Assembly: GCA_030065915.1 (NCBI GenBank)
Contig: JASJCQ010000024.1
Span: 1 to 64,000 of the forward strand
DNA from: Woeseiaceae bacterium
GTDB lineage: Bacteria; Pseudomonadota; Gammaproteobacteria; Steroidobacterales; Woeseiaceae
Reading direction: 5' to 3'
DNA length: 64,000 nucleotides
Shown here: piece by piece, positions 8,625 through 54,547 of the stretch
Numbering within the stretch: position 1 is the first letter of the stretch
Layout of the letters: every line of letters starts with the position of its first letter
Program-made: the position numbers and the translations under genes
The notes under the pieces: generated by a model
Database searches by the model: none
Seen by the model: only the letters and a program-made list of their open reading frames with translations
Told to the model about the DNA's origin: nothing

Positions 8625-9146
8625 GTGAGCAAGACGACGCCCGCTACGCTATACGCGTTTTCTGGTCTGCCCGGCGTGGGCAAGACGACACTGGCAAAGC
8701 GACTGGCGGCGTCGGTGAATGCCTGCTTCATCCGTATCGATACGGTGGAGCAGGCGCTCCGCGATCTCTGTGATTTCGATGCTGAGGGTGAAGGCTATCG
8801 GCTCAGTTACCGGATAGCCGCTGACAATCTCTTGAACGACGTCAGCGTCGTCGCTGATTCCTGCAATACGATTGCACTGACGCGCCGCGAGTGGGAGGCC
8901 GTTGCCGCTGACGCAGGCTCACGCTGCGTCAATATCGAGGTCGTGTGTTCCGACCGGCAAGAGCACAAGGCCCGCATAGAGAGCAGGACCTCTGACATCG
9001 TTGACCTGTACCTGCCGACCTGGGCCGATGTCGAAGCTCGTGAATACGAGGCCTGGACCGAAGAGCGGCTGATTATCGACACGGCAGGTCGGACCGAGGA
9101 CGAGGCATTCGCGCAACTCGATCGCTGTCTTGCGGTCGAACGATGA
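8625..9146 (+). CDS. P-loop ATPase/kinase of the zeta-toxin/AAA_33 type
   Basis: A 173-residue small nucleotide-binding protein. Walker A is GLPGVGKT at residues 14-21. A strand-helix with RIDTVEQAL follows (about residue 37, lid/Walker-B-like region), and VVADSCNT lies near residue 75. Proteins of this shape phosphorylate small molecules (gluconate, chloramphenicol, sugar nucleotides), or act as zeta-type toxins when paired with an antitoxin; no epsilon-like antitoxin is adjacent, so a metabolic kinase is more likely. Start is GTG 8625 without a strong ribosome site, 42 bases after the methyltransferase. Confidence 0.7.
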   Translation: MSKTTPATLYAFSGLPGVGKTTLAKRLAASVNACFIRIDTVEQALRDLCDFDAEGEGYRLSYRIAADNLLNDVSVVADSCNTIALTRREWEAVAADAGSRCVNIEVVCSDRQEHKARIESRTSDIVDLYLPTWADVEAREYEAWTEERLIIDTAGRTEDEAFAQLDRCLAVER

Positions 9147-9224
9147 GATACTGGCGTCCCGTTGCCTTCTTCCGCAAATGAGGCAGAAGCGCCATGAAAC
9201 ACCCCAAAGAGGCTAGCAGCTACC

Positions 9225-10100
9225 ATGTGCGATGAGTTCACCAACAAAGACGAAGAAGACTTCCTGCGTCGCAACTCGATTACGAGGCGGGAATTCACCA
9301 AGAGAGGCGCCGCAGTAGCGGCGACGACGCTGCTGCCGGCCGTAGCGGGTGCCGTGGATGTCACCGAGCAGGACGTCACGGTCGAAACACCGGACGGAAT
9401 GGCCGACGCCTATTTCGTGCATCCGTCTTCCGGCAAACACCCGGCCGTCATCGTCTGGCCGGACATCAAGAGCATACGCAATGCGTTTCGCGCCATGGGT
9501 AAGCGGCTGGCGCAGTCGGGCTACTCTGTCCTCGTCGTTAATCCTTACTATCGAACCCACAAGGGCGCGATCCTGCCGGACGGCGGATCGTTCCGTGACC
9601 CGGCGATTCGAGAGCTCCTGATGCCCCATGCAAGAAGCCTGTCGCCGGAGACGTGTGTCACCGACGGCAAAGCCTATGTGAAATTCCTCGATGCACAGGA
9701 AGCGGTCGACAGCTCGAAGAAAATCGGAACCACCGGTTACTGCATGACGGGTTCCTACACGTTTCGACTGGCGGCGGCGATGCCGGATCGCATCGGTGCC
9801 GGCGCCTCGTTTCACGGTGGCGGGCTCGCAACCGACAAGCCGGAAAGCCCGCACCTGCTGGTGCCCCGGATCAAGGCCGGCTTCCTGGTCGCCATTGCAG
9901 AGAACGATCACGAACGTTTTCCCGAGGAGGAGCCCCGGCTTCGGAAGGCATTTTCAGAGGCGGGTGTGAGCGCCGAGATCGAAGTCTACGACGGTGCAAT
10001 GCACGGATGGTGCCCCCCGGACAGTGACGTCTACAACGAAGTCCAGGCCGAGCGCGCCTGGAGTCGTTTACTGGTTTTGCTGGAAAAGGAACTCGTCTGA
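9225..10100 (+). CDS. Dienelactone hydrolase family protein with twin-arginine signal
   Basis: A 291-residue alpha/beta hydrolase. The N-terminus holds a Tat-like signal (TRREFTKRG, residues 20-28, then a run of Ala/Leu to about 42), so it probably acts in the periplasm as a folded protein. The DLH catalytic triad is visible: Cys173 in GYCMTGS (the usual motif is GYCxGG), Asp228 in AENDHERF and His260 in GAMHGW. Dienelactone hydrolases open lactone rings in chlorocatechol degradation, but exported members act on unknown esters or lactones. It has its own 78-base upstream gap and is followed directly by the repeat-bearing gene island. Confidence 0.85.
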   Translation: MCDEFTNKDEEDFLRRNSITRREFTKRGAAVAATTLLPAVAGAVDVTEQDVTVETPDGMADAYFVHPSSGKHPAVIVWPDIKSIRNAFRAMGKRLAQSGYSVLVVNPYYRTHKGAILPDGGSFRDPAIRELLMPHARSLSPETCVTDGKAYVKFLDAQEAVDSSKKIGTTGYCMTGSYTFRLAAAMPDRIGAGASFHGGGLATDKPESPHLLVPRIKAGFLVAIAENDHERFPEEEPRLRKAFSEAGVSAEIEVYDGAMHGWCPPDSDVYNEVQAERAWSRLLVLLEKELV

Positions 10101-10166
10101 TACCACGCTAGTTCTCTACCGGCTCATGCTTGCTCGCGTGAGCGCTTCGGACCTGTAAGTATCGCT

Positions 10167-10210
10167 CAGGTGATTTGAGGTAGGATGACCCATGACTGCG
10201 CGAAGCCGCC
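10167..10210 (+). repeat. Promoter-like intergenic repeat, copy 1
   Basis: First of six related elements, one before each small gene to 13.1 kb. It reads CAGGTGATTTGAGGTAGGAT with the -10-like hexamer TAGGAT at 10181-10186, then TGACCC and a GCG-rich end. It matches copy 4 over CAGGT, TTTGAGGTAG and ATGACC. The hexamer is 50 bases before the start codon of the following gene. Confidence 0.6.
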
Positions 10211-10235
10211 GCTCAAGAACACGTAGCGTACGTCT

Positions 10236-10628
10236 ATGAACGAATTATTGGGACTCCTGCGAAACGCCGAGATCGCGCTTCATCAACCAGATACTCGGCG
10301 TGATACATCACAAGTTCAGGCGGTACTGCACGAGTCTTTCCTGGAGTTTGGTCGATCGGGCACTATCTACGATCGGCCCGCAATCCTCGATCTTCTGGCT
10401 TCCGAACAATCTGTTGGTCGTGTCTTGTCTCAGGATTTCGAATTGATTCCGCTGGGCGCCAGCACTGCGTTGCTCACCTATAAATCCGCGAGCGTCGACG
10501 AATCCGGAGAGATTCATAGATATACGCTGAGAGCTTCTATCTGGATACTGAGTGCGGACGGCTGGAAGATCAGGTTTCATCAAGCAACACCGACTGAGGC
10601 GTTCGATGTAACTGCCAATGACTGCTAA
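10236..10628 (+). CDS. DUF4440 / SnoaL-like (NTF2-fold) protein
   Basis: A 130-residue protein of the NTF2-like cone fold. An N-terminal helix (LLRNAEIALHQPDTR) is followed by LHESFLEFGRSGTIYDRPAILDLL and closes with WKIRFHQATPT, the typical DUF4440 pattern of small protein-binding or enzyme-like domains found widely as single genes. No catalytic residue can be assigned. It is the first gene of the repeat-spaced island, sits 50 bases after repeat copy 1, and has no obvious partner. The start at 10236 (ATGAACGAA) is the first ATG of the frame. Confidence 0.75.
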   Translation: MNELLGLLRNAEIALHQPDTRRDTSQVQAVLHESFLEFGRSGTIYDRPAILDLLASEQSVGRVLSQDFELIPLGASTALLTYKSASVDESGEIHRYTLRASIWILSADGWKIRFHQATPTEAFDVTANDC

Positions 10629-10647
10629 TGGCTGTAACCCGTCGCTC

Positions 10648-10695
10648 ATTGAATGTCCGCTATACTGACGCCTCCTGACCCATTGCGGTCATTGG
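10648..10695 (+). repeat. Promoter-like intergenic repeat, copy 2
   Basis: TATACT at 10661-10666 is the best -10 match of the family, followed by TGACGCCTCCTGACCCATTGCGG. The second half (TGACCCATTGCGG) is identical to copy 4. It lies 69 bases before the next start codon. Confidence 0.6.
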
Positions 10696-10734
10696 CTATT
10701 CGTTCAAAAAGACAAAATCCTTCAGCGTGAGTCA

Positions 10735-11031
10735 ATGGACGCGCAACCTTCCGGCAGATTTGAAGTTACCGATCACTACGAACTTTCTGGGCGTGGCGCG
10801 TTTGTCATTGGTTACATTCGCGAGGGCAAAGTCAAAGTTGGCGATTCTGTTCCTTTGCCTGACTCTTCAGTAAGTTGGACGATCAGCGGCATCGAGTTTT
10901 TGGACAATATCTCCAAGCGGAAGTACTGGAATGCTCTTCTCTTCAAAGAACACCCAGCACGCGCCGATGTCGAAGCGGCTTTCCCAGTTGGATCGTTCGT
11001 AGACATTTACGAAGATGTGCCGGAGAGTTAG
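10735..11031 (+). CDS. Small protein resembling a translation-factor beta-barrel domain
   Basis: A 98-residue stand-alone protein. GRGAFVIGYIREGKVKVGDSV (residues 21-41), the later ISGIEFL and the closing PVGSFVDIYED match the beta-strand and turn pattern of EF-Tu domain 2, where G-x-v-x-G-D marks the barrel. It has no GTPase domain, so it cannot be a translation factor; such orphan barrels are unassigned. It is preceded by repeat copy 2. ATG 10735 was chosen; the ribosome site is weak. Function unknown. Confidence 0.65.
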   Translation: MDAQPSGRFEVTDHYELSGRGAFVIGYIREGKVKVGDSVPLPDSSVSWTISGIEFLDNISKRKYWNALLFKEHPARADVEAAFPVGSFVDIYEDVPES

Positions 11032-11063
11032 CGGCGGCCGACTGGTTTTGGCCGGAACCAGTC

Positions 11064-11118
11064 GTCCAGGCATATAGAGGTAGAATGACGGCTTCCGACA
11101 CTTTACAGCCGCTGGGTA
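11064..11118 (+). repeat. Promoter-like intergenic repeat, copy 3, with upstream inverted repeat
   Basis: CCAGGCATATAGAGG is followed by the -10-like TAGAAT at 11081-11086 and TGACGGCTTCCGACA. Directly upstream is a perfect 8-bp inverted repeat, GACTGGTT (11040-11047) and AACCAGTC (11056-11063), which could be the terminator of the previous gene, although no T-run follows. The hexamer is 53 bases before the next start. Confidence 0.6.
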
Positions 11119-11138
11119 ACACCCAATATGTCGTCTCA

Positions 11139-11504
11139 ATGAAGATTCTCAGCAAGGTCCTGATCGCGACAATACTGGCCGGCATCGCATTCTCGCCGGT
11201 TTATTTGTACAGCGGCGCGCCCCTCAGAGTTCATTTGGCGGATGCGCTTGGCCTATTGATCGCATTCTGGATTCCGGCGTTGATGATTCGTAGCTGGGAG
11301 GACTTGAAACGCCGAGCTTTGCTCTTCGCTGCCTTCGTTGTGTTTGGGACTTTGGCATGGGACGCAGTCACTGCTTCAGTCATAAGCAAGCGCGACTTCC
11401 TAATGGGCGCTGCAATCCTTTATCCAGTATCCCTGATCGGCTGTTTTGCGCTGTTTTCGATCCAGGCGGCACTTCTTAAGCTGTTCAAACAAGAGACTGT
11501 CTGA
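11139..11504 (+). CDS. Small integral membrane protein, unrecognised
   Basis: A 121-residue protein with about four membrane segments: LIATILAGIAFSPVYLY (7-23), LGLLIAFWIPALMI (37-50), LLFAAFVVFGTLAWDAV (61-77) and a last one near 92-110. The frame is open upstream to 10875, but that stretch runs through repeat copy 3 and the previous gene, so ATG 11139 is the credible start. No family recognised. It lies 53 bases after the -10-like hexamer of repeat copy 3. Confidence 0.6.
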   Translation: MKILSKVLIATILAGIAFSPVYLYSGAPLRVHLADALGLLIAFWIPALMIRSWEDLKRRALLFAAFVVFGTLAWDAVTASVISKRDFLMGAAILYPVSLIGCFALFSIQAALLKLFKQETV

Positions 11505-11540
11505 GCATGAATTGAACTTCCGCTACTGGCCGTGAGCTGC

Positions 11541-11594
11541 CAGCCAGGTATTTTGAGGTAGCATGACCCCTAGTGACCCATTGCGGACGGTCAC
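11541..11594 (+). repeat. Promoter-like intergenic repeat, copy 4
   Basis: CCAGGTATTTTGAGG then TAGCAT (11559-11564), TGACCCC and TGACCCATTGCGGACGG. It is the fullest copy and closest to the family consensus. Upstream lies CGCTACTGGCCGTGAGCTG, which recurs in diverged form after the last gene of the island (13140 onward). Confidence 0.65.
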
Positions 11595-11616
11595 AGATCA
11601 TCGAAACAGGCGCTAA

Positions 11617-12198
11617 ATGAACAGCAAACCTCTCGCATTGGGGATCATTTTGGCCGTACTGCTATTCGGGGCAGGATGTAGCCGTGGAGATGTCGGTCTG
11701 ACACCCTCGCAGCAAGTCTACGAAGTCGTAATGAATGAGCGTATGCAGGACGCACTGACTGAAGTAATCGTACTCAGTCACACCGAGGCACAGTACCTCC
11801 GCGAAGGAAGCAAAGACGAACTGTGGTCGTACATTCAGCGAGAAGTTAACATGCCCGATGCTCTCTTGGACCGGCTATTCGAGTCAGCCGAAACTAGCGT
11901 AGAGCTTGAATGGTCGCCAGTAATGATCAATGCCAAGTTTGTGGACAAGGCCGAGATTTCCTCCGAATCGAACTGGCGGTCGCGTAAATTCGCTGAAGAT
12001 TTTCGAGCCGCATTTCCGGAGCACCAAGAGTTTTACGCACTGTCAGATGTGGCGCTGAGCGATGATCAGTTAGAAGCGGCTCTGGTACTTTCGTACTACT
12101 GTCCTGCGATGTGTGGAAGCGGAGAGTTCTTGCTCTATTTCAAGAAAACGGGGATGGAGTGGAACATAGAAGGTTTCACAGTCTTCTGGATAACCTGA
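11617..12198 (+). CDS. Putative lipoprotein, unrecognised
   Basis: A 193-residue protein with a lipoprotein-type signal (MNSKPLALGIILAVLLFGAGC, cysteine 21), so it is probably anchored to a membrane facing the periplasm. The mature part has no motif I recognise. It carries two helical stretches rich in Glu, Gln and Arg and ends with LVLSYYCPAMCGSGEFLLYF, holding a C-x3-C pair. Residue composition and codon use look less GC-rich than the genes outside the island. It follows repeat copy 4 by 53 bases. Confidence 0.6.
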   Translation: MNSKPLALGIILAVLLFGAGCSRGDVGLTPSQQVYEVVMNERMQDALTEVIVLSHTEAQYLREGSKDELWSYIQREVNMPDALLDRLFESAETSVELEWSPVMINAKFVDKAEISSESNWRSRKFAEDFRAAFPEHQEFYALSDVALSDDQLEAALVLSYYCPAMCGSGEFLLYFKKTGMEWNIEGFTVFWIT

Positions 12199-12248
12199 TG
12201 CCAGTATTTGGGACGCGGCCACAGAATGCTTCTTGCCGGAAGGCGTCG

Positions 12249-12295
12249 GCCAGGTCCTCTGCGTTAAACTGGCAGCTCCTGATCCAAAGGCGACA
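12249..12295 (+). repeat. Promoter-like intergenic repeat, copy 5
   Basis: CCAGGTCCTCTGCGT then TAAACT (12265-12270), GGCAGCTCCTGATCCAAAGGCGAC. It aligns base for base with copy 6 over most of its 3' half (CTTCTGACCCAAAGCCGAC there). The hexamer is 41 bases before the next start. Confidence 0.55.
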
Positions 12296-12310
12296 TCGAC
12301 GACTTGATCA

Positions 12311-12598
12311 GTGAATATCCTAAAGTTCAATGAAGAGTTTTATCGTCGCTCGTACAAAGCCAGCGAGTCTTTGCGACATCATCGAACTCAAATCATCGCA
12401 GGAGCCCTCGTGTTCTGGACTGGGATGTTGACGGCGATCGGTTACTTTCGCGAGTTCGGGCAAACAGATGCGCGGTTTCTGATCTTCGGGTTCTTTTGGA
12501 TGACGATTCCGATGTCATTAGCTACGTATGGCATGCCTAGATTACTACTACGCGTAGTGCCACTCATGAACGGCTACAAACCGGAGAATGATGGGTAG
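12311..12598 (+). CDS. Small two-helix membrane protein, unrecognised
   Basis: A 95-residue protein starting at GTG 12311. It has a basic and polar N-terminus, then two membrane segments (AGALVFWTGMLTAIGYF, about 31-47, and FLIFGFFWMTIPMSLATYG, about 55-74), and a short cytosolic or periplasmic tail. No family recognised. It is the fifth gene of the repeat-spaced island and there is no sign of a partner gene. Confidence 0.55.
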   Translation: MNILKFNEEFYRRSYKASESLRHHRTQIIAGALVFWTGMLTAIGYFREFGQTDARFLIFGFFWMTIPMSLATYGMPRLLLRVVPLMNGYKPENDG

Positions 12599-12652
12599 CT
12601 GTTTTCTTGGAAATCGTGATTGTCACCGTCAGCCGATCGCCGTTTCCAGCCG

Positions 12653-12705
12653 CCCCTGCATTTTCGGTTAGACTGACGGCTTCTGACCCAAAGCCGACTC
12701 TGAAG
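12653..12705 (+). repeat. Promoter-like intergenic repeat, copy 6
   Basis: CCCTGCATTTTCGGT then TAGACT (12669-12674), TGACGGCTTCTGACCCAAAGCCGAC. An open frame from 12607 runs through this element, but that is best read as chance, because the other five copies are non-coding. Confidence 0.6.
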
Positions 12706-12717
12706 AACTCAATAGCC

Positions 12718-13137
12718 TTGTTGTCAGGCCTCAAATTATTCTGGCTCGAGCATCGTAGTGAAGTAAGAGGATGGGCCATCGTTCTCGCAATACTCTTCGC
12801 TTTCCTGTCGGTGTTGTTCGCTTACGACCGCATGTACAACCCGGAAACAGACTTCCTAGGTACAGAGAAAGGTCAAGTTTCCAAACTTGTCAGAGCATCC
12901 AAGCCGGGAGACTACGCCATGGGTTCTTCTCTATGGGAGCTGGAGATTGTGCTATCTGATGGAAAGAGGATCACAGCACAGAGCCCCTTTCTCGTACCGT
13001 CGGGTTCTGAAGTCTGTCTGGCATCGTTCACAAAGGGATGTTGGGGGCAAGGTCACTGGGTTATCGGCGAAGTGAAAGTCATGGTCGAAGAAGGTGTCGA
13101 TTGCTCGACTTGGCAACCAGCAAGCGAGAATCGTTGA
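12718..13137 (+). CDS. Single-pass membrane protein, unrecognised
   Basis: About 139 residues from TTG 12718 (a second TTG follows at 12721). The frame is open from 12607, but the extra 37 codons lie over repeat copy 6, so the later start is preferred; it is not supported by a strong ribosome site. There is one membrane helix (IVLAILFAFLSVLFAYDRM, about 21-39), then a soluble beta-rich domain with the Cys-containing segment CLASFTKGCWGQGHW and a final VDCSTW. That domain resembles small DUF3592-like or YhdP-tail-like proteins, without a safe match. Last gene of the island. Confidence 0.5.
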   Translation: MLSGLKLFWLEHRSEVRGWAIVLAILFAFLSVLFAYDRMYNPETDFLGTEKGQVSKLVRASKPGDYAMGSSLWELEIVLSDGKRITAQSPFLVPSGSEVCLASFTKGCWGQGHWVIGEVKVMVEEGVDCSTWQPASENR

Positions 13138-13216
13138 GTCCGCTTCTGGCCGTTAGCAGGCCGTTCGGAACCCATCAATAGCGGCCTGTCTGGCGGCCGG
13201 TCGCCCACAATAGCGG
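13138..13216. repeat. Repeat-rich end of the small-gene island
   Basis: After the last gene lies TCCGCTTCTGGCCGTTAGCAG, a diverged copy of the segment at 11519-11540 (TCCGCTACTGGCCGTGAGC). Two CAATAGCGG copies about 30 bases apart follow, with inverted GGCCGCC-like blocks between them. It separates the rightward island from a leftward gene and may act as a terminator or be a recombination remnant. Confidence 0.4.
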
Positions 13217-17487: not shown

Positions 17488-18210
17488 ATGGCCGCGAATG
17501 ACAACACCCTGGTCCGCCTGCGGGGCTTGAGCCGTCGTTTCACCGAGGGCGAGCGCGAACACGTCGTGCTCGATGGCGTCGATCTCGATATCGAGCGAGG
17601 CGAGTCGGTCGCTATCTGCGGTCGCAGCGGGTCCGGCAAGTCGACATTGCTCAACCTGATTGGCGGAATCGATGCGCCGGATGCCGGCGAGGTCATCGTC
17701 GATGCGGTCAACCTGACGACGCTGAACGAGCATGAACGGACCTTGTTCCGACGTCGTCACATCGGCTTCGTCTACCAGGCGTTTAACCTGATTCCGACAC
17801 TGTCGGTCAGCGATAACATACGCCTGGTCCTCGAACTCAATGACGTCAAGGGACGGTCGGCGACGATACGCATCAACGCGTTGCTCGATGCCGTGGGTCT
17901 CGACGGACGCGCCGACAGTTACCCCGATGTCTTGTCAGGCGGCGAACAGCAGCGTGTCGCGATGGCGAGAGCCTTGAGCCACGAGCCCGCCGTACTGATC
18001 GCGGATGAGCCGACCGGCAATCTCGATGACGCGACGGCAGAGAGGATCATTGCGCTCCTGAGCGACATTGTCCGCGAGCACGGTACGACGCTCGTCATGG
18101 CGACTCACAGCTCGCGGGTCGCCGCAACCTGCGATCGCGTCATCAACCTGCACAACGGAAAGATCGACGCCGCAGACGCCGTGCCAGCCGACCCGGATTC
18201 CGGCTCGTGA
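17488..18210 (+). CDS. ABC transporter ATPase, LolD/AttE-like
   Basis: 240 residues. Walker A is GRSGSGKS (45-52), the signature is LSGGEQQRV and Walker B is VLIADEPTGNLD, the set typical of the ATPases that power FtsX-fold (type VII) ABC machines. These move lipoproteins or act mechanically across the envelope; they are not import systems. Its stop overlaps the permease gene by 4 bases, and a CrtC-like lipocalin follows 2 bases after the permease. ATPase-permease-CrtC order is that of the Agrobacterium attEFGH cluster. Start ATG 17488. Confidence 0.9.
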   Translation: MAANDNTLVRLRGLSRRFTEGEREHVVLDGVDLDIERGESVAICGRSGSGKSTLLNLIGGIDAPDAGEVIVDAVNLTTLNEHERTLFRRRHIGFVYQAFNLIPTLSVSDNIRLVLELNDVKGRSATIRINALLDAVGLDGRADSYPDVLSGGEQQRVAMARALSHEPAVLIADEPTGNLDDATAERIIALLSDIVREHGTTLVMATHSSRVAATCDRVINLHNGKIDAADAVPADPDSGS

Positions 18211-23175: not shown

Positions 23176-25545
23176 TCACTCCCGGGTTTTCAACACCTCG
23201 ATTAGATCCAGGTGATCGAGGCGATGGCGTACGATCAGTGCCGCGATCACTGTGGCCGCCAGCGCGATCACGACGGACAGCCCATAGGTCGACGGCTCGA
23301 TTTTCAATGGAATTCGAAACAGCTCCGTATTGAACGAAGCCGCCATGAGTTCAGACAGTGCGCGGCCGAGCAGGCAACCGACCGGCAGCGCGAGAACGAT
23401 GAGCAGCCCTGTTTCGCCGAGCAAGATGTAGGAGATCTCGCCGCGGCTGAACCCGAGAACTCGCAGCGTCGCGAGTTCGCGGCCGCGCTCGGAGAGTGCG
23501 ATGCGTGCGCTGTTGTAGGCCACACCGATACCGAGCGCACACGCCAGCGTCGAGAACATCGTGATAAAGACCATCAGATGCTCGACGATCGTGCTGTAAA
23601 AGGAATCGATCGCCGCCCGACGCAGCATTACCGCTGAGATCATCGGCAGCTCTTTCAGCCTTGCGTAAAACGCGGCTTCGTAGCGGCTATCGAGCAAGAG
23701 ATTGACGTACTCGGCGCTGGGGCGTTCTTTCAGCAAGCGATTCAGCGCATCGACGTTTACGAATGCGGGCGTGCCGATGTAGGTTTCGATGAGTCCTACG
23801 ACCGGCAGCCTCACTTCAGGCCGTCGTCCCTCGAAGATCTTCACCCAGACCTGGTCGCCAACCGACGCGCCGAGCTTCTCGGCCAGGACCGTGCCGAGGA
23901 CGAGGCCGTCGGCCGGAACCGGTACGACGCGTGACTTCGAATCGTCGAATATCGGTTGCAGCCAGGCGCCGGATTTCAGTCCGGTCAGGGAGCCTCGATG
24001 TGTTACGGATCCGACTGACAGGTCCGCGCTGACGATCCGCATCGGCTCTGCCGCGAGCACGCCCGGCAGATGCTCGAAGTCGTGCTTGATCGTCTCGGCC
24101 TGCGGCTCGGCGAGGCCAACGGTGACATCCTGGTGCTGTGCCTTGAAGAAATAGCTGTCTCCAAGGTAGTTCAAAGAATCGTTCCACTGCATCGCGAGGA
24201 TCAGCAGGCTGATCGAGGCTGCGACGCCAAGTGTCGTCATCGAGGATCGTTTCGGCGCGCGCATGACGTTGCGAAGGATGATGCGCGACCCCTGGTCCAT
24301 CCAGCGTGCTGCTTCTGATTCCCAGATTCGCATGCGACGGAAGACGGCGGGCGCCGGCGGTATCATGGCTTGCGCCGGTGGCAACTGCGACGCGCGCCGC
24401 ACCGCGCCTACCGATCCTAGAAGCGCAGCGGCGAGGCTCACACCGACAGCCGTTACGATCGCGCTCGTGCTCGGTCGATAGAGCAGTATCGGGAATCGGT
24501 ACAGGTCGGCGTACATCTCCGTGTTGATGCGCCCGAGCCACGTTCCGGCGAGGACGCCGATCAGGCTGCCAACGAGGACGATGCCAACCACGAACTTGCC
24601 GTAGTGGAGGCCCACCTCGTTGCTCGAGTAGCCGAAAGCTTTCATCAATCCGATCTGGCTGCGCTCCGTCGCGACGAGACGACCCAGCACCATGTTGGTC
24701 AGAAAGGCCGACACGACGAGGAAGATCGTTGGCAGGATCAGCGACGTGGTCTTCAGCTGCTCCATCTCGTTCATGACGAACCAGTTGGACAACTGGTCCT
24801 TGCGCGCAATGGAGGCGACTCCGCCGTAGGGCTCAAGGATTCGGTCGAGCCGTCGCAATACCTGTTCGACATCCGAACCTCGCTCGAGATCGAGCGAGAC
24901 GCTGTCGAAAGCGCCCTTGAGGTCGTAGGCAGCGGCCAGCGCTTCGTGCCCCATCCAGAAGATGCCGAAGCGCCGGTCATCGGGCATCAACGCGCCCGGA
25001 GCGATTGCGTACACGAACTCGGGCGACAGCGCTGTGCCGACGATCGTGAGCTCACGTCGATGGCCGTTGATGACGGCGATGATCTGCTGACCGATCGCGA
25101 GCCGGTGCTCCTCTGCGAAGGGCTCGTTGATGACGACCTCATAGTCGGCAGCGGCATCCGGCAGGCGGCCGCTGCGGAGTGCCAACTGGTTCAGAATCGG
25201 CTGTCGTCCCGCGGGAATGGAGACGAACTGGCCCATCACGGGTTCGGCGACACCGTCGAGATCGATCGTCGCGAAGCGCGACACACGAAGCTGCACCGTG
25301 CGCACCCCGGGTATGGCTGCGATGCGTGACTCGACGCTCTCCGGCGCCCGCGTGGCCCAGGCGAAGACTTCGCCGAAGCGGTAGCGCTCGTAATAGGCGT
25401 CCGTCGTATCCTCCAGCGCCTCCAGCGTCGACAGCGACATGATCAGTGCGGCAATGCCCGCCGCGATCACCATGCCTATAGCGAGCACCTGCCCGCGCAG
25501 GTGCCATAGATCGCGAAGTACTTTTCGGTCCAATGCGCGCATCAC
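23176..25545 (-). CDS. FtsX-family ABC permease (DevC/MacB-like, long form)
   Basis: 789 residues. The first helix ([19 protein letters not shown], about 20-38) is followed by a periplasmic domain and a three-helix bundle near 265-385 ([21 protein letters not shown]). A second helix near 435 precedes another periplasmic domain, and final helices lie around 660-775. [17 protein letters not shown] and [17 protein letters not shown] are the two coupling helices, so one chain carries two FtsX units. It overlaps the ATPase gene by 4 bases and works with the adaptor downstream as a tripartite exporter. Substrate unknown; glycolipids or hydrophobic compounds are exported by relatives. Confidence 0.88.
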
Positions 25546-26246
25546 CAGGCCAACTCCGCCGGCGGGCGACGCACGTCATTCTGGTCGATGCGCGCGATAA
25601 CGCCGTCGGCGACGTGCAGCACACGATCGGCCATCGAGCCAATGACCGTGTTGTGGGTGATGACGGCCGTGGTTGTCCCGAGTTCACGATTGACCTGGTC
25701 GATCGCCTCGAGCACGAGGATGCCGGTCTCGCTGTCCAGCGCGCCGGTTGGCTCGTCGCAGAGCAGTATCTCCGGCTGTTTGGCGATCGCGCGCGCTATA
25801 GCCACTCGTTGCTGTTCGCCGCCGGATAACTGTGCCGGAAAGTGATGCAATCGCTCATTCAGGCCGACAATACTGAGCGCCTCTGCCGGGTCGAGCGGCC
25901 GCTCCGCGATTTCAGTGACGAGGGCCACGTTCTCCTCGGCAGTCAGACTCGGAATCAGGTTGTAAAACTGGAACACGAACCCGACGTGGTCCCGCCTGAA
26001 CCGGGTTAGCTCGGCCTCATCGGCACCGGTGAGATAGTGGTCGCGAAACCGCACGTCGCCGGACGTCGCGGAATCCAGGCCGCCGATGATGTTCAGCAAA
26101 GTAGATTTGCCCGAGCCTGACGGGCCGAGGATGACCACCAGTTCTCCGGCGTAGAGATCAAGATCCGCACCGCGCAGCGCGTGCACTTCGACCTCACCGG
26201 TCTGGTAGACCTTGGTGACATCGCGGGCCGTCAGCGTCGCCTTCAT
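25542..26246 (-). CDS. ABC transporter ATPase (LolD/MacB/DevA-like)
   Basis: About 234 residues from ATG 26246. The frame is open a further 7 codons to 26267, but AGGTG lies 4 bases before the later ATG and [15 protein letters not shown] is the normal family opening. Walker A is GPSGSGKS (about 41-48), the signature is LSGGEQQRV and Walker B is [12 protein letters not shown]. First gene of the leftward DevBCA-like operon. The 293 bases upstream (26247-26539) form a divergent promoter region toward the GerW-like gene and hold only a small hairpin (CCCGT/ACGGG near 26463-26480). Confidence 0.9.
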
Positions 26247-26539
26247 AGCACACCTCATCAGATCCATGACAGATTCAACTGCATGTCGCGCCGCGCCTCA
26301 ATCCGCATTAGCCGCTGTAGCGTTTCGGTGTTTTTGGATACGGAAGGATCGGTCCTCGATCGACGTGTGACGCCCGGGGACCAGACCCGGCAGTGTCGTC
26401 CATGACTGGCTCCGATGAACCAGGTCGCGGCAATCATCCGCTGTTGCTCGGCGCGCGGGAAGCCCGTATAGACAACGGGCGCTCGTATTGCTACTTGAAG
26501 TAGTGCGGCCGCAAAGGGCGGGCGCAGGAGGTTAAAGAC

Positions 26540-39746: not shown

Positions 39747-40404
39747 CGGCTGGCAGGCGCTCTGGCTGACAGCGCAGCTGGCGGCTATCACCACGGCGAT
39801 CCTGATGGTAGTCGCGACGCCGATGGCCTGGTGGCTTGCGAATACGCGATCGGTCTTCCGACCGCCCATCCAGGCCATCGTTGCCTTGCCCATCGTCTTG
39901 CCACCCACGGTCATCGGCTTCTACCTGCTGGTCCTGCTGGGTCCGACGTCAACGTTGGGCGGCTGGTGGGTGCAGCTGACGGGCAGCACGCTGACTTTCT
40001 CGTTCTCAGGTCTGGTCATCGCATCCTGCATCTACAGCCTGCCCTTCGCCGTACAGCCGTTGCAGAACGCGTTCGAGCCGCTCGGACAAGCCGAGGTGGA
40101 GGCCGCTCGCACGCTGGGTGCGTCGAAACTCGACGCCTTCTTCAGCGTCGTCGTGCCGATGAGCAAGCCGGGTTTCATCAACGCCGCGGTCTTGAGCTTC
40201 GCGCACACGATCGGTGAATTCGGCGTCGTGCTGATGGTTGGCGGCAATATTCCCGGAGAGACGCGCCTGATATCGATCGCGATTTACGACAGCGTGGAGT
40301 CGCTGGATTACTCGACCGCCCACTCAATGTCCGCGGTGCTGTTGGTGCTCGCCTTCGTGACGCTGCTTGGCATGTTCCTGTTCAATCGGAGACGGGCGGC
40401 ATGA
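39739..40404 (+). CDS. modB: Molybdate ABC transporter, permease
   Basis: 221 residues from GTG 39739, which overlaps modA by 8 bases; the frame continues 17 codons upstream inside modA. Five to six helices, and the cytoplasmic EAA loop is EVEAARTLGASKLDAFFSVVVPMSKPGFI (about 129-157), the ABC-permease coupling region. FAHTIGEFGVVLMVGGNIPGETRLISIAIYD is the ModB hallmark. Works with ModA and ModC for molybdate uptake. Confidence 0.95.
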   Translation: MTDGWQALWLTAQLAAITTAILMVVATPMAWWLANTRSVFRPPIQAIVALPIVLPPTVIGFYLLVLLGPTSTLGGWWVQLTGSTLTFSFSGLVIASCIYSLPFAVQPLQNAFEPLGQAEVEAARTLGASKLDAFFSVVVPMSKPGFINAAVLSFAHTIGEFGVVLMVGGNIPGETRLISIAIYDSVESLDYSTAHSMSAVLLVLAFVTLLGMFLFNRRRAA

Positions 40405-41483
40405 ACTCGCCGGTTCGCATCCGGCTGACGCTGCCCCGGGACGCATTTCGCCTGCATGTTGACCTGGCGCTCGAAGGGCAAGGCATTACCGGTTTGTTCG
40501 GCGAGTCGGGATCCGGCAAGACCAGCCTGTTGCGATGCCTGGCTGGTCTCGAGAAGGTCGCCGACGGCCATATCGAGGTTGGCGGTGAGACGTGGCTCGA
40601 TACAGAGGCCGGCGTGAATCGCCCGCCGCATGAGCGCTCCCTGGCTTACGTCTTCCAGGAGCCGAGGTTGTTCCCACACCTGAGCGTGGAGCGAAACCTT
40701 CAGTACGCGGCAAAGCGCGCGGAGTCTTCCGCGGTGTCTTACGATCATGTCGTCGAGCTGCTGTCTTTGACGAGACTGCTGCCGCGGAATGCGACACAAC
40801 TGTCAGGCGGAGAGGCCAAGCGCGTGGCGATTGCCAGGGCGTTGCTTCGATCGCCGTCCCTGTTGCTGATGGATGAACCCCTGTCATCCCTCGATGCCGG
40901 AAAGCAGAGGGAGCTGCTGCCGTATCTTGACCGCCTGCAGGCTGACCTGACGATACCGGTAATCTACGTCAGCCACTCGATAGACGAGATCACTCAGCTC
41001 AGCGATCAGCTGGTGGTCCTGGCGTCTGGAGCGGTGCAGGCCGCGGGCCCGCTCCAGGAAGTGCTGTTGCGGACCGATATCGAACTGCTCGGTGGCGCCG
41101 AGGCGGGCGTCATCCTCGAAACGGATCGAAAAGACTTCGACAACCAGCACAGGCTCACCCGACTGCAGTTCTCTGGCGGCGACCTCTGGGTCAGCGCCGA
41201 TGTGCCCAGCCCCCATCCGAGAGTGCGCATTCGCGCCAATGACGTCAGCCTGTGCAAGACGCGTCCGGCCGACAGCAGCATTCTGAATATCGTCCCGGTC
41301 GTCGTCGAGGAAATTACTGCCGACGGCGAAGCATCGGTGCTCGTCGAACTGCATGCGGGCAGCGACCAGCTGCTGGCTCGTATAACCCGCCGTTCGCTAA
41401 GGGATCTGGACATTGCCGTCGGGAGCCAGTTGTTCGCTCAGATCAAGTCGGTTGCGGTCAGGAACAGCGCCGTCTCGATCTAA
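40401..41483 (+). CDS. modC: Molybdate ABC transporter, ATPase
   Basis: 360 residues. Walker A is GESGSGKT (34-41), the signature LSGGEAKRVAIARAL begins near 134, and Walker B is LLMDEPLSSLD. The C-terminal 70 residues form the TOBE/molybdate-regulatory domain (VRIRANDVSLCKTRP, ILARITRRSLRDL-like), where intracellular molybdate can feed back on transport. Overlaps modB by 4 bases. Confidence 0.95.
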   Translation: MNSPVRIRLTLPRDAFRLHVDLALEGQGITGLFGESGSGKTSLLRCLAGLEKVADGHIEVGGETWLDTEAGVNRPPHERSLAYVFQEPRLFPHLSVERNLQYAAKRAESSAVSYDHVVELLSLTRLLPRNATQLSGGEAKRVAIARALLRSPSLLLMDEPLSSLDAGKQRELLPYLDRLQADLTIPVIYVSHSIDEITQLSDQLVVLASGAVQAAGPLQEVLLRTDIELLGGAEAGVILETDRKDFDNQHRLTRLQFSGGDLWVSADVPSPHPRVRIRANDVSLCKTRPADSSILNIVPVVVEEITADGEASVLVELHAGSDQLLARITRRSLRDLDIAVGSQLFAQIKSVAVRNSAVSI

Positions 41484-47880: not shown

Positions 47881-48807
47881 ATGCCCGATATCCTGACCAT
47901 ACGAGACCTGCACAAGACTTATCCCGGCGGCTTCGAGGCGCTCAAAGGAGTCGACCTCGATATCGATCGAGGCGAAATCTTCGCGTTGCTCGGACCTAAT
48001 GGTGCTGGCAAGACGACGCTGATCAGCATCGTCTGCGGAATCGCCAACGCCACGTCCGGCAGTATTCGGGTGGACGACTTCGATATCGTCGACGATTTCC
48101 GCGAGACACGATCGCGAATCGGCCTGGTGCCGCAGGAGCTGCCTGTCGATGCATTCGAGACGGTTTGGGACACGGCGACATTCAGTCGCGGGCTGTTCGG
48201 GCGAGACAGCAGTCCGCAACACATCGAGAAGGTGTTGAAGTCGCTGTCGCTGTGGGACAAGAAGGATTCTCGCATCATCGACCTGTCGGGCGGCATGAAG
48301 CGGCGCGTCCTGATCGCGAAGGCGCTGGCACATGAGCCTGAACTGTTGTTCCTCGATGAGCCGACGGCAGGCGTCGACGTCGAACTGAGGCAGGACATGT
48401 GGGACGTCGTCCGCGAGCTCCGCGAGAACGGTGTGACGATCGTCCTGACGACCCACTACATCGAAGAGGCCGAGCAGATGGCCGATCGCGTCGGCGTCAT
48501 CAACAACGGCGAGATCATCGTTGTCGAAGACAAGACGCGACTGATGCAGGAGCTCGGCCGCAAGCAGCTGTTCATCCAGTTGCAGCAGCCGCTTGATGCC
48601 CTGCCAGAGCCACTGAGCGACCTGCCTGTCGAATTACTGCACGACGGCCACGAGCTCTGCTACACCTACGACACCCGCAGCGAGAGTACGGGCATCACGG
48701 CGCTACTCCGAACGTTGCAGGAGTCGGGGATTCACTTCAACGACCTGCATACATCGCAGAGCTCACTCGAGGACATTTTCGTCGACCTCGTGAGGCGGAC
48801 CGAATGA
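47881..48807 (+). CDS. ABC-2 type exporter, ATPase (YadG/CcmA-like)
   Basis: 308 residues. Walker A is GPNGAGKT (38-45), the signature is LSGGMKRRV (about 138) and Walker B is [12 protein letters not shown]. The 80-residue C-terminal extension ([21 protein letters not shown]..) is typical of YadG/NodI-type ATPases. The permease follows with a 4-base overlap, making a two-gene exporter for an unknown substrate (polysaccharide, lipid or drug). Confidence 0.93.
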
Positions 48808-53851: not shown

Positions 53852-54547
53852 TTATCCGTTGGCCGCTCGCAGGAACTCGGGCGCCGCGTCGGTGACCTGG
53901 CCGTCGCGGACGAAGATGTTTCTCTTCGCGCGATCCGCGAGCGTCAGCTCATGGGTCACCATGATGATCGTTACGCCGTTGCTGTTGATCTCGGACAGCA
54001 GGTCAAGCACGGAATCCGCCATGTGCGTGTCGAGGTTTCCGGTCGGTTCGTCTGCCAGCAAAAAGCGCGGCTCGCCCGCCAGGGCTCGAGCGATGGCGAC
54101 GCGCTGCTGCTGGCCACCGGACAGCTGGGCCGGCTGATGCTTGAGGCGTGATGCGAGGCCCACCATGTCGAGGGATTCCTCGATACGACGCTTGCGTTCC
54201 GCCGCGTTCAGGCCGCGGTAGCGCAACGGCACGTCCACGTTGTCGAAAATATTCAGTTCGGGGATCAGGTTGAAGCTCTGGAAAATGAAACCGATCTTCT
54301 CGTTGCGTACGCGGGAGCGTTCACGATCGTTGAGCTTGGAGATGTCGCGGCCGTCCAGTTCATAGGTGCCGCTGGTCATTTCCTCGAGCAGGCCGGCGAT
54401 GTTCAGGAATGTCGTCTTGCCGGATCCGGACGGACCGGTAACGGAGACGAACTCGCCTTCGTCGACGGTCAGCGAAAACTCGCGTAGCGCGTGCGTCTCG
54501 ACCGTGTCTGTTCGGTAGATCTTGGAAACGTCTGTCATTTTCAGCAT
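53852..54547 (-). CDS. MacB/LolD-type ABC ATPase
   Basis: 231 residues. Walker A is GPSGSGKT (38-45), the signature is LSGGQQQRV and Walker B is FLLADEPTGNLD. It is third in relatedness to the two LolD-type ATPases at 17.5 and 25.5 kb. Follows the adaptor gene by 23 bases; first energy-coupling component of the efflux operon. Confidence 0.93.
   Translation of the reverse strand: MLKMTDVSKIYRTDTVETHALREFSLTVDEGEFVSVTGPSGSGKTTFLNIAGLLEEMTSGTYELDGRDISKLNDRERSRVRNEKIGFIFQSFNLIPELNIFDNVDVPLRYRGLNAAERKRRIEESLDMVGLASRLKHQPAQLSGGQQQRVAIARALAGEPRFLLADEPTGNLDTHMADSVLDLLSEINSNGVTIIMVTHELTLADRAKRNIFVRDGQVTDAAPEFLRAANG

Follow-up and report, generated by a model that had tools for sequence, protein, structure and literature searches.

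Here we describe an array of small genes in a Woeseiaceae bacterium and the repeated junction element that separates its genes. The array lies in the first quarter of the window, the 64,000 nucleotides at positions 1 to 64,000 of contig JASJCQ010000024.1 (assembly GCA_030065915.1), taken from a genome of 3.96 Mb that is 99.98% complete (G000). We consider it probable that the array is an orphan, built of mobile cassettes with a single gene each, and that it belongs to an integron-like system with another integrase and other sites. The system works like an integron yet fails two defining features, the integrase IntI and attC sites. The element, the arrays, the shuffling of genes between array loci, a recombinase gene at array heads of congeneric genomes and a second system in another family were all computed directly.

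Six copies of the element are present where the original prediction had placed them. When a profile was made of any five copies, the held-out sixth ranked right behind them and above every other position of the window on both strands. All six array genes are on the + strand and, in agreement with the earlier statement that they are mostly without recognised family, five of the six have no Pfam match. The size of about 45 bases first given for the element has to be revised: it is a composite of about 80 bp, of which the 45-base element is the right-hand half, with a second palindrome (L) upstream of it. Likewise an extent of six copies is incomplete, as a seventh, partial site consisting of L only follows the last gene. 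The features of the array are as follows.

9225 to 10100, + strand: gene for a dienelactone hydrolase, to the left of the array; the congener G075 has the ortholog (91% aa identity) on an array contig of different composition
10135 to 10215, + strand: junction element 1 (array head), the weakest copy, -10 hexamer at 10181
10236 to 10628, + strand: putative cassette gene 1, DUF4440, 130 aa, the sole array gene with a Pfam match
10615 to 10695, + strand: junction element 2 (L, putative promoter, R), -10 hexamer TATACT at 10661
10735 to 11031, + strand: putative cassette gene 2, 98 aa, no Pfam match
11035 to 11115, + strand: junction element 3, -10 hexamer TAGAAT at 11081
11139 to 11504, + strand: putative cassette gene 3, 121 aa, no Pfam match
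11513 to 11593, + strand: junction element 4, -10 hexamer TAGCAT at 11559
11617 to 12198, + strand: putative cassette gene 4, 193 aa, no Pfam match
12219 to 12299, + strand: junction element 5, -10 hexamer TAAACT at 12265
12311 to 12598, + strand: putative cassette gene 5, 95 aa, no Pfam match
12623 to 12703, + strand: junction element 6, -10 hexamer TAGACT at 12669
12718 to 13137, + strand: putative cassette gene 6, 139 aa from a TTG start at 12718 picked by eye, no Pfam match
13133 to 13165, + strand: terminal site, L palindrome alone, closing the array (19.0 bits; opposite-strand best 11.9)

Each complete junction is composed of a palindromic site L, a spacer with a -10 box and a palindromic site R, in this order. 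L (GAnYGnCnGCTT-cTGGCCGn-AAGCnGnCnnTC, centre TGGCCG) is positioned 3' of a gene, and R (GAnYGnCnGCTn-CTGACCCA-AAGCnGnCnTTC, centre TGACCC) 5' of the next gene; both carry the same orientation within a junction and their centres are 47 bp apart. Since L and R match each other, an unanchored profile iteration drifted. A TA...T hexamer is found in 80 of 93 spacers of the window's genome and in 121 of 125 congeneric copies, as compared to 25% and 28% of shuffled spacers, although this test is partly circular, the copies having been gathered with a profile already containing that box. The promoter-like nature originally ascribed to the element is thus retained as far as the hexamer goes, with this reservation about its conservation. 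Differing spacer sequences recur across arrays and genomes. No covariation above shuffles was detected across the arms, across the cassette or within either palindrome (three candidate stems), for which reason L and R look like double-stranded protein sites. Folded single-strand sites of the attC kind were considered and rejected on the same absence of covariation and on RNAalifold, which gave no structure for the element copies. An Rfam scan of 8 kb returned no match up to an E-value of 1. In 30 arrays with at least three elements from this genome and its congeners, R is normal at the first position (25.0 versus 25.4 bits) but L is degenerate there (9.3 versus 20.9 bits, p 2.6e-6). Arrays tend towards the general layout promoter-R-[gene-L-promoter-R]n-gene-L.

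The element is not confined to the window locus, nor does it stand before ordinary genes throughout the genome. A 21-base pattern with up to two mismatches occurs at 44 places in the genome, and all 44 are inside 18 loci; with up to three mismatches there are 62 places versus 17 for the reversed control. The profile finds 85 copies, or 93 after refinement, and none in the reversed sequence, counts which cover the 18 loci picked for pattern matches and not the whole genome; three further loci with three-mismatch pattern matches gave no profile match. Sixteen of the 18 loci hold at least two copies and two are single-copy, and two of the 18 are neighbouring pieces of one contig. With the strict pattern, elements are present in 33 of the 73 genomes of the genus, among them the array-rich G010 with 21 elements in one array. 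The null explanation offered with the original prediction was that the element is just a common promoter or intergenic sequence, standing before small accessory genes that are unrelated to each other, with no recombination system at all. The conserved -10 box, within the circularity mentioned, would agree with it, as would the palindromes with the same arms that look dispersed, singly or as inverted pairs, in Alphaproteobacteria. It is nevertheless quite improbable, because the 44 places are restricted to 18 loci whose gene content differs between genomes and because both palindromes are conserved beyond what a promoter needs.

The genes between the elements have much in common. In 55 of 63 element-to-element intervals shorter than 2.5 kb the longest open reading frame (ORF) is on the element strand, so that there is mostly one gene each. 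The intervals have a median span of 643 bp and a mean GC content of 0.53, versus about 0.6 across most of the window. The 67 cassette proteins of this genome that were scanned matched 43 Pfam families, the commonest of which, glyoxalase, occurs in three.

Gene content of the arrays was compared with that of G075, by one marker the closest of the 73 genus genomes (91% aa identity in the hydrolase gene). A G075 contig of 9385 bp (C49) contains eight homologous blocks in a row, 68-87% identical at the nucleotide level, which come from seven different array loci of the window's genome (L047, L039, L032 twice, L035, L042, the window hydrolase and L037) and overlap 9 of the 13 ORFs of the contig. 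Such clustering is not expected by chance because the comparison took in about 9% of the window's genome. The stretches that flank the arrays form long collinear blocks of up to 6.5 kb between the two genomes. At L047 the flanks are conserved, and what they enclose is 5.0 kb with two elements in the window's genome and, in G075, 1.06 kb in which the profile finds nothing. Draft assemblies may contain false joins at repeats, but the elements here are short and diverged. Variable gene content between conserved flanks had been named as the sign of a cassette-like array, and the predominance of single genes between elements, the shuffling among array loci and the different content of L047 support this part of the original prediction. 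Where two array loci share a cassette, homology starts inside R in two cases (L034/L044, 89%; L226/L248, 88%) and stops at L in three (L034/L044, L037/L247, L102/L174); most of the other homology edges simply fall at gene ends. In the two pairs with a start inside R, the shared sequence begins past the promoter, which is therefore apparently part of the junction and not of the cassette, so that the idea of each gene bringing its own promoter is not supported. For a tyrosine recombinase, the differing centres of the two sites would favour pairing of R with R and of L with L.

A candidate for such a recombinase is encoded at array heads of congeners and not in the window's genome, which has two PF00589 proteins only, presumably XerC and XerD. 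It is a PF00589 protein of 208 aa (E 9e-19), first found in G079 (L107) and G067 (L274) and called the integrase below. Nine distinct loci from the genus and IMG/VR encode the protein at an identity of at least 60% and have upstream sequence. In seven of them an R site lies 98-106 nt upstream of the gene, facing away from it (22-37 bits), and in four of these seven another outward-facing R follows the stop codon. In the remaining two, R is 235 nt upstream (L304) or just past the stop codon (L194). When the sequences left and right of the gene were compared de novo, the element emerged as inverted copies in 4 of 23 loci tested, three from congeners and one from a Pseudomonas plasmid (scores 27-41, controls 7-10.6). 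Both IMG/VR contigs that were picked by the R DNA pattern alone encode the recombinase (64-74% identical), and they look like one element. L194 is a phage contig with terminase, head and capsid genes; at 8699-10912 of it the integrase and two further genes sit between head-morphogenesis and capsid genes. L101 has a 48-aa remnant of the recombinase inside an array locus.

Residues R, K, H, R, H and Y at positions 59, 87, 156, 159, 182 and 191 are invariant in 10 of 10 proteins, and we take these to be the expected catalytic places. The Pfam match spans residues 36-192, and the protein is apparently too short for a core-binding domain; an alignment-free predicted fold of the phage copy (mean pLDDT, predicted local distance difference test, of 36) is too poor for the question of this domain. 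The best PDB match is XerD (1a0p, E 2e-6), followed by XerH and XerA. Similarity to the invertase model NF007371 is weak (26-30 bits). Proteins 50-56% identical to the integrase form a sister group at L299-L303, with no full elements nearby.

Orphan arrays in an integrase-free genome are known from integrons as clusters of attC sites lacking integron-integrases (CALIN), and a true integron remnant with unusual attC sites would have much the same look: unidirectional single-gene cassettes, low GC and functions without assignment. The motif GKTAGAC moreover recalls the attC R' box. In the window's genome, however, no integron integrase was found above the cut-off, the box GTTRRRY is present in only 5 of the 93 elements and paired with RYYYAAC in 1, and the three candidate stems show no covariation. 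The recombinase associated with the arrays reaches 19.5 and 25.2 bits with the IntI model TIGR02249, whose cut-off is 265. A remnant of this type is therefore very improbable, and the earlier statement that the window locus has neither attC sites nor a recombinase is supported, the 208-aa protein too having no relative at an E-value of 1e-30 in this genome. Repetitive extragenic palindromic sequences (REP), bacterial interspersed mosaic elements (BIME) or miniature inverted-repeat transposable elements (MITE) spread by a Y1 transposase (REP-associated tyrosine transposase, RAYT) would likewise appear as palindromic intergenic repeats. Here the palindromes have GTAG nearby, and Y1 matches are found in 48 of the 73 genus genomes and once in the window's genome. 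Yet G010, with its rich arrays, and G012, G042, G076 and G086 all have elements and no Y1 match, a distribution on which the RAYT/IS200 logic was rejected. To our knowledge, REPs do not set off single genes in a constant orientation; the repeats here have no RAYT link, one gene per repeat and shuffled genes. We regard this origin as hardly credible. The single RAYT-like Y1 transposase gene of the window's genome is at 83374-83712 of contig C33.

Outside the genus, the R pattern was found in 57 stretches of named genomes from Woeseiaceae, other Gammaproteobacteria and Alphaproteobacteria. In four alphaproteobacterial loci (L155, L179, L186, L188) the same palindromes occur as inverted pairs or triplets, which seem to be dispersed and not arrayed. 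In seven loci of other Gammaproteobacteria (L174, L143, L166, L173, L183, L168, L144) the junction element is longer, about 200 bp, with up to four palindromes whose centres are TGGCCG, TGGnGA, ACnCCC and TGACCC. The integrase occurs in 8 of 369 gammaproteobacterial genomes at an E-value of 1e-50 and in 106 plasmid records at an identity of at least 60%, another 2065 matching records being more distant. Among the matches listed, the plasmid integrases are mostly labelled tyrosine-type recombinase/integrase. The family is carried by large plasmids of Pseudomonas, Paraburkholderia and others; on a Pseudomonas plasmid, the integrase lies between inverted copies of an R-like element. Among five records from plasmids or phages, R-like sites flank the gene only in L307 and, weakly, in L309.

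The second system is found in G130, a one-contig genome of another family. G130 and six other class-level loci were chosen solely by their integrase, after the model had been formed. Both integrase loci of G130 adjoin arrays of palindromes whose arms are the same but whose centre differs (TTGCGCCG), numbering 18 and 8 as compared to 0.4 and 0.5 in shuffles; relative to the genus, the centres of the sites change and the arms stay. An L-type site on the same strand follows 17 of 18 genes in L321 (a 57-aa ORF was left out and one site is a weak repeat) and 7 of 8 in L320, together 24 of 26. Two divergent R-type sites (CGACCC) lie between half-arrays. The arrays, at 3619-11396 of L320 and 511-13653 of L321, are situated between partial duplicates of tRNA genes (Met, Ser). 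They may be genomic islands, because such duplicates flank both. Two gammaproteobacterial families thus have arrays; the integrase is found in addition on plasmids and in a phage contig.

A number of findings weigh against the proposal that a dedicated recombinase moves cassettes at these junctions. The window's genome has no cognate 208-aa enzyme in cis, and relatives of it at an E-value of 1e-30 occur in 11 of the 73 genus genomes, fewer than the 33 with elements. The five loci with relatives of 50-56% identity are without a full element. None of 15 loci outside the genus, whose integrases are 62-72% identical, has an upstream R match of at least 20 bits; L307 has matches of 15.1 bits upstream and 23.1 bits downstream and L317 one of 16.1 bits upstream. 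Six of the eight class-level integrase loci (from five genomes) lack an array like those of G130 and show no excess of palindromes. A terminal L of at least 12 bits is found at 22 of 30 array ends and on the opposite strand at 20 of 30, a comparison confounded by the palindromy of L. The boundaries of the shared cassettes are drawn from five edges, and rapid change of intergenic sequence could produce a similar picture. In the exchange with G075, an element stands directly upstream in both genomes for three of the eight blocks (L039, L032 at 3649, L035), and their elements in C49 are weak (16-24 bits). The L042 block has an upstream element in the window's genome only, and four blocks, including the hydrolase, have none directly upstream in either genome and lie beside or between elements. 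For the hydrolase gene (9225-10100) no recognisable element directly precedes it in the window's genome or in G075.

Some of these points would fit general homologous recombination or natural transformation, which could shuffle the arrays by way of short repeats or neighbouring genes, the small recombinase being a passenger. Block edges at gene ends and the four blocks without an upstream element agree with such a process, and so does the fact that the window's genome, G075 and G082, each with two PF00589 proteins, all have elements, the first two with exchange between them. On the other hand, the window copies are mostly 60-70% alike over about 50 nt, and repeats of this kind are a poor substrate for RecA. 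The recombinase is moreover placed precisely at array heads in seven of nine loci, and the same arms recur with a recombinase in another family. On balance, we consider homologous recombination an unlikely explanation and prefer a system of mobile cassettes with its own integrase.

In such a system, each junction would hold two recombinase-type core sites, L and R, with a predicted -10 promoter box between them. The 208-aa tyrosine recombinase would pair R with R and L with L, so that gene units could be inserted, excised or exchanged in a manner analogous to the action of the integron integrase at attI and attC. Catalysis by this protein, the positions of crossover in the sites, the like-with-like rule and the activity of the promoter are all predicted from sequence. 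The outward-facing R beside the recombinase gene at the heads of congeneric arrays would be the analogue of attI. The window's genome would have kept arrays at 16-18 loci with no such recombinase; exchange would then need an enzyme supplied from outside, or the enzyme may since have been lost.

Compared with integrons, the arrays are alike in their mostly single-ORF, low-GC cassettes in one direction, bounded by a family-specific repeat, in the head tyrosine recombinase gene of congeners, which is read away from the array, and in the existence of orphan arrays. They differ in that the recombinase has 208 aa and is not IntI, the sites have no attC R''/R' boxes and no base-pair covariation, there are two kinds of core site plus a promoter-like box at most junctions, and arrays can run out in both directions. 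From CALIN they differ in that their sites are not attC. The catalytic domain is shared with Xer and other simple tyrosine recombinases, whereas the apparent lack of room for a core-binding domain and the multicopy sites between genes are not; the sites, which we take to be unlike dif, argue against Xer as the recombinase. FimB/FimE-type small tyrosine invertases resemble the integrase in their size of about 200 aa and in its weak similarity to the invertase model NF007371, but here the multi-gene arrays are in direct orientation and there is no invertible promoter.

According to section 7 of PMC8138268, simple recombinases usually have a core-binding and a catalytic domain, and none is described in that section as a 200-aa cassette integrase. 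In the open-access literature no description of the system was found, and an older one may exist outside it. Literature matches to the motif strings, judged by title and the start of the abstract, were taken as chance.

Elsewhere in the window are five homologous proteins (17488-18210, 25542-26267, 40401-41483, 47881-48807 and 53852-54547), mutually 25-44% identical, which look ABC-ATPase-like by eye.

The chances are about even that the arrays represent a second, independently evolved gene-capture system with a recombinase of the size of a catalytic domain, double-stranded heterospecific core sites, natural recombinase-mediated cassette exchange and separable promoter-R modules. The platform that textbooks describe for the collection of single genes is the integron, and a parallel platform would escape integron finders. 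Many of the genes it carries have no known family, as with five of the six in the window. If the system is what it appears to be, it would open two questions to testing: whether cassette capture has had more than one origin, and whether it requires sites folded from a single strand.

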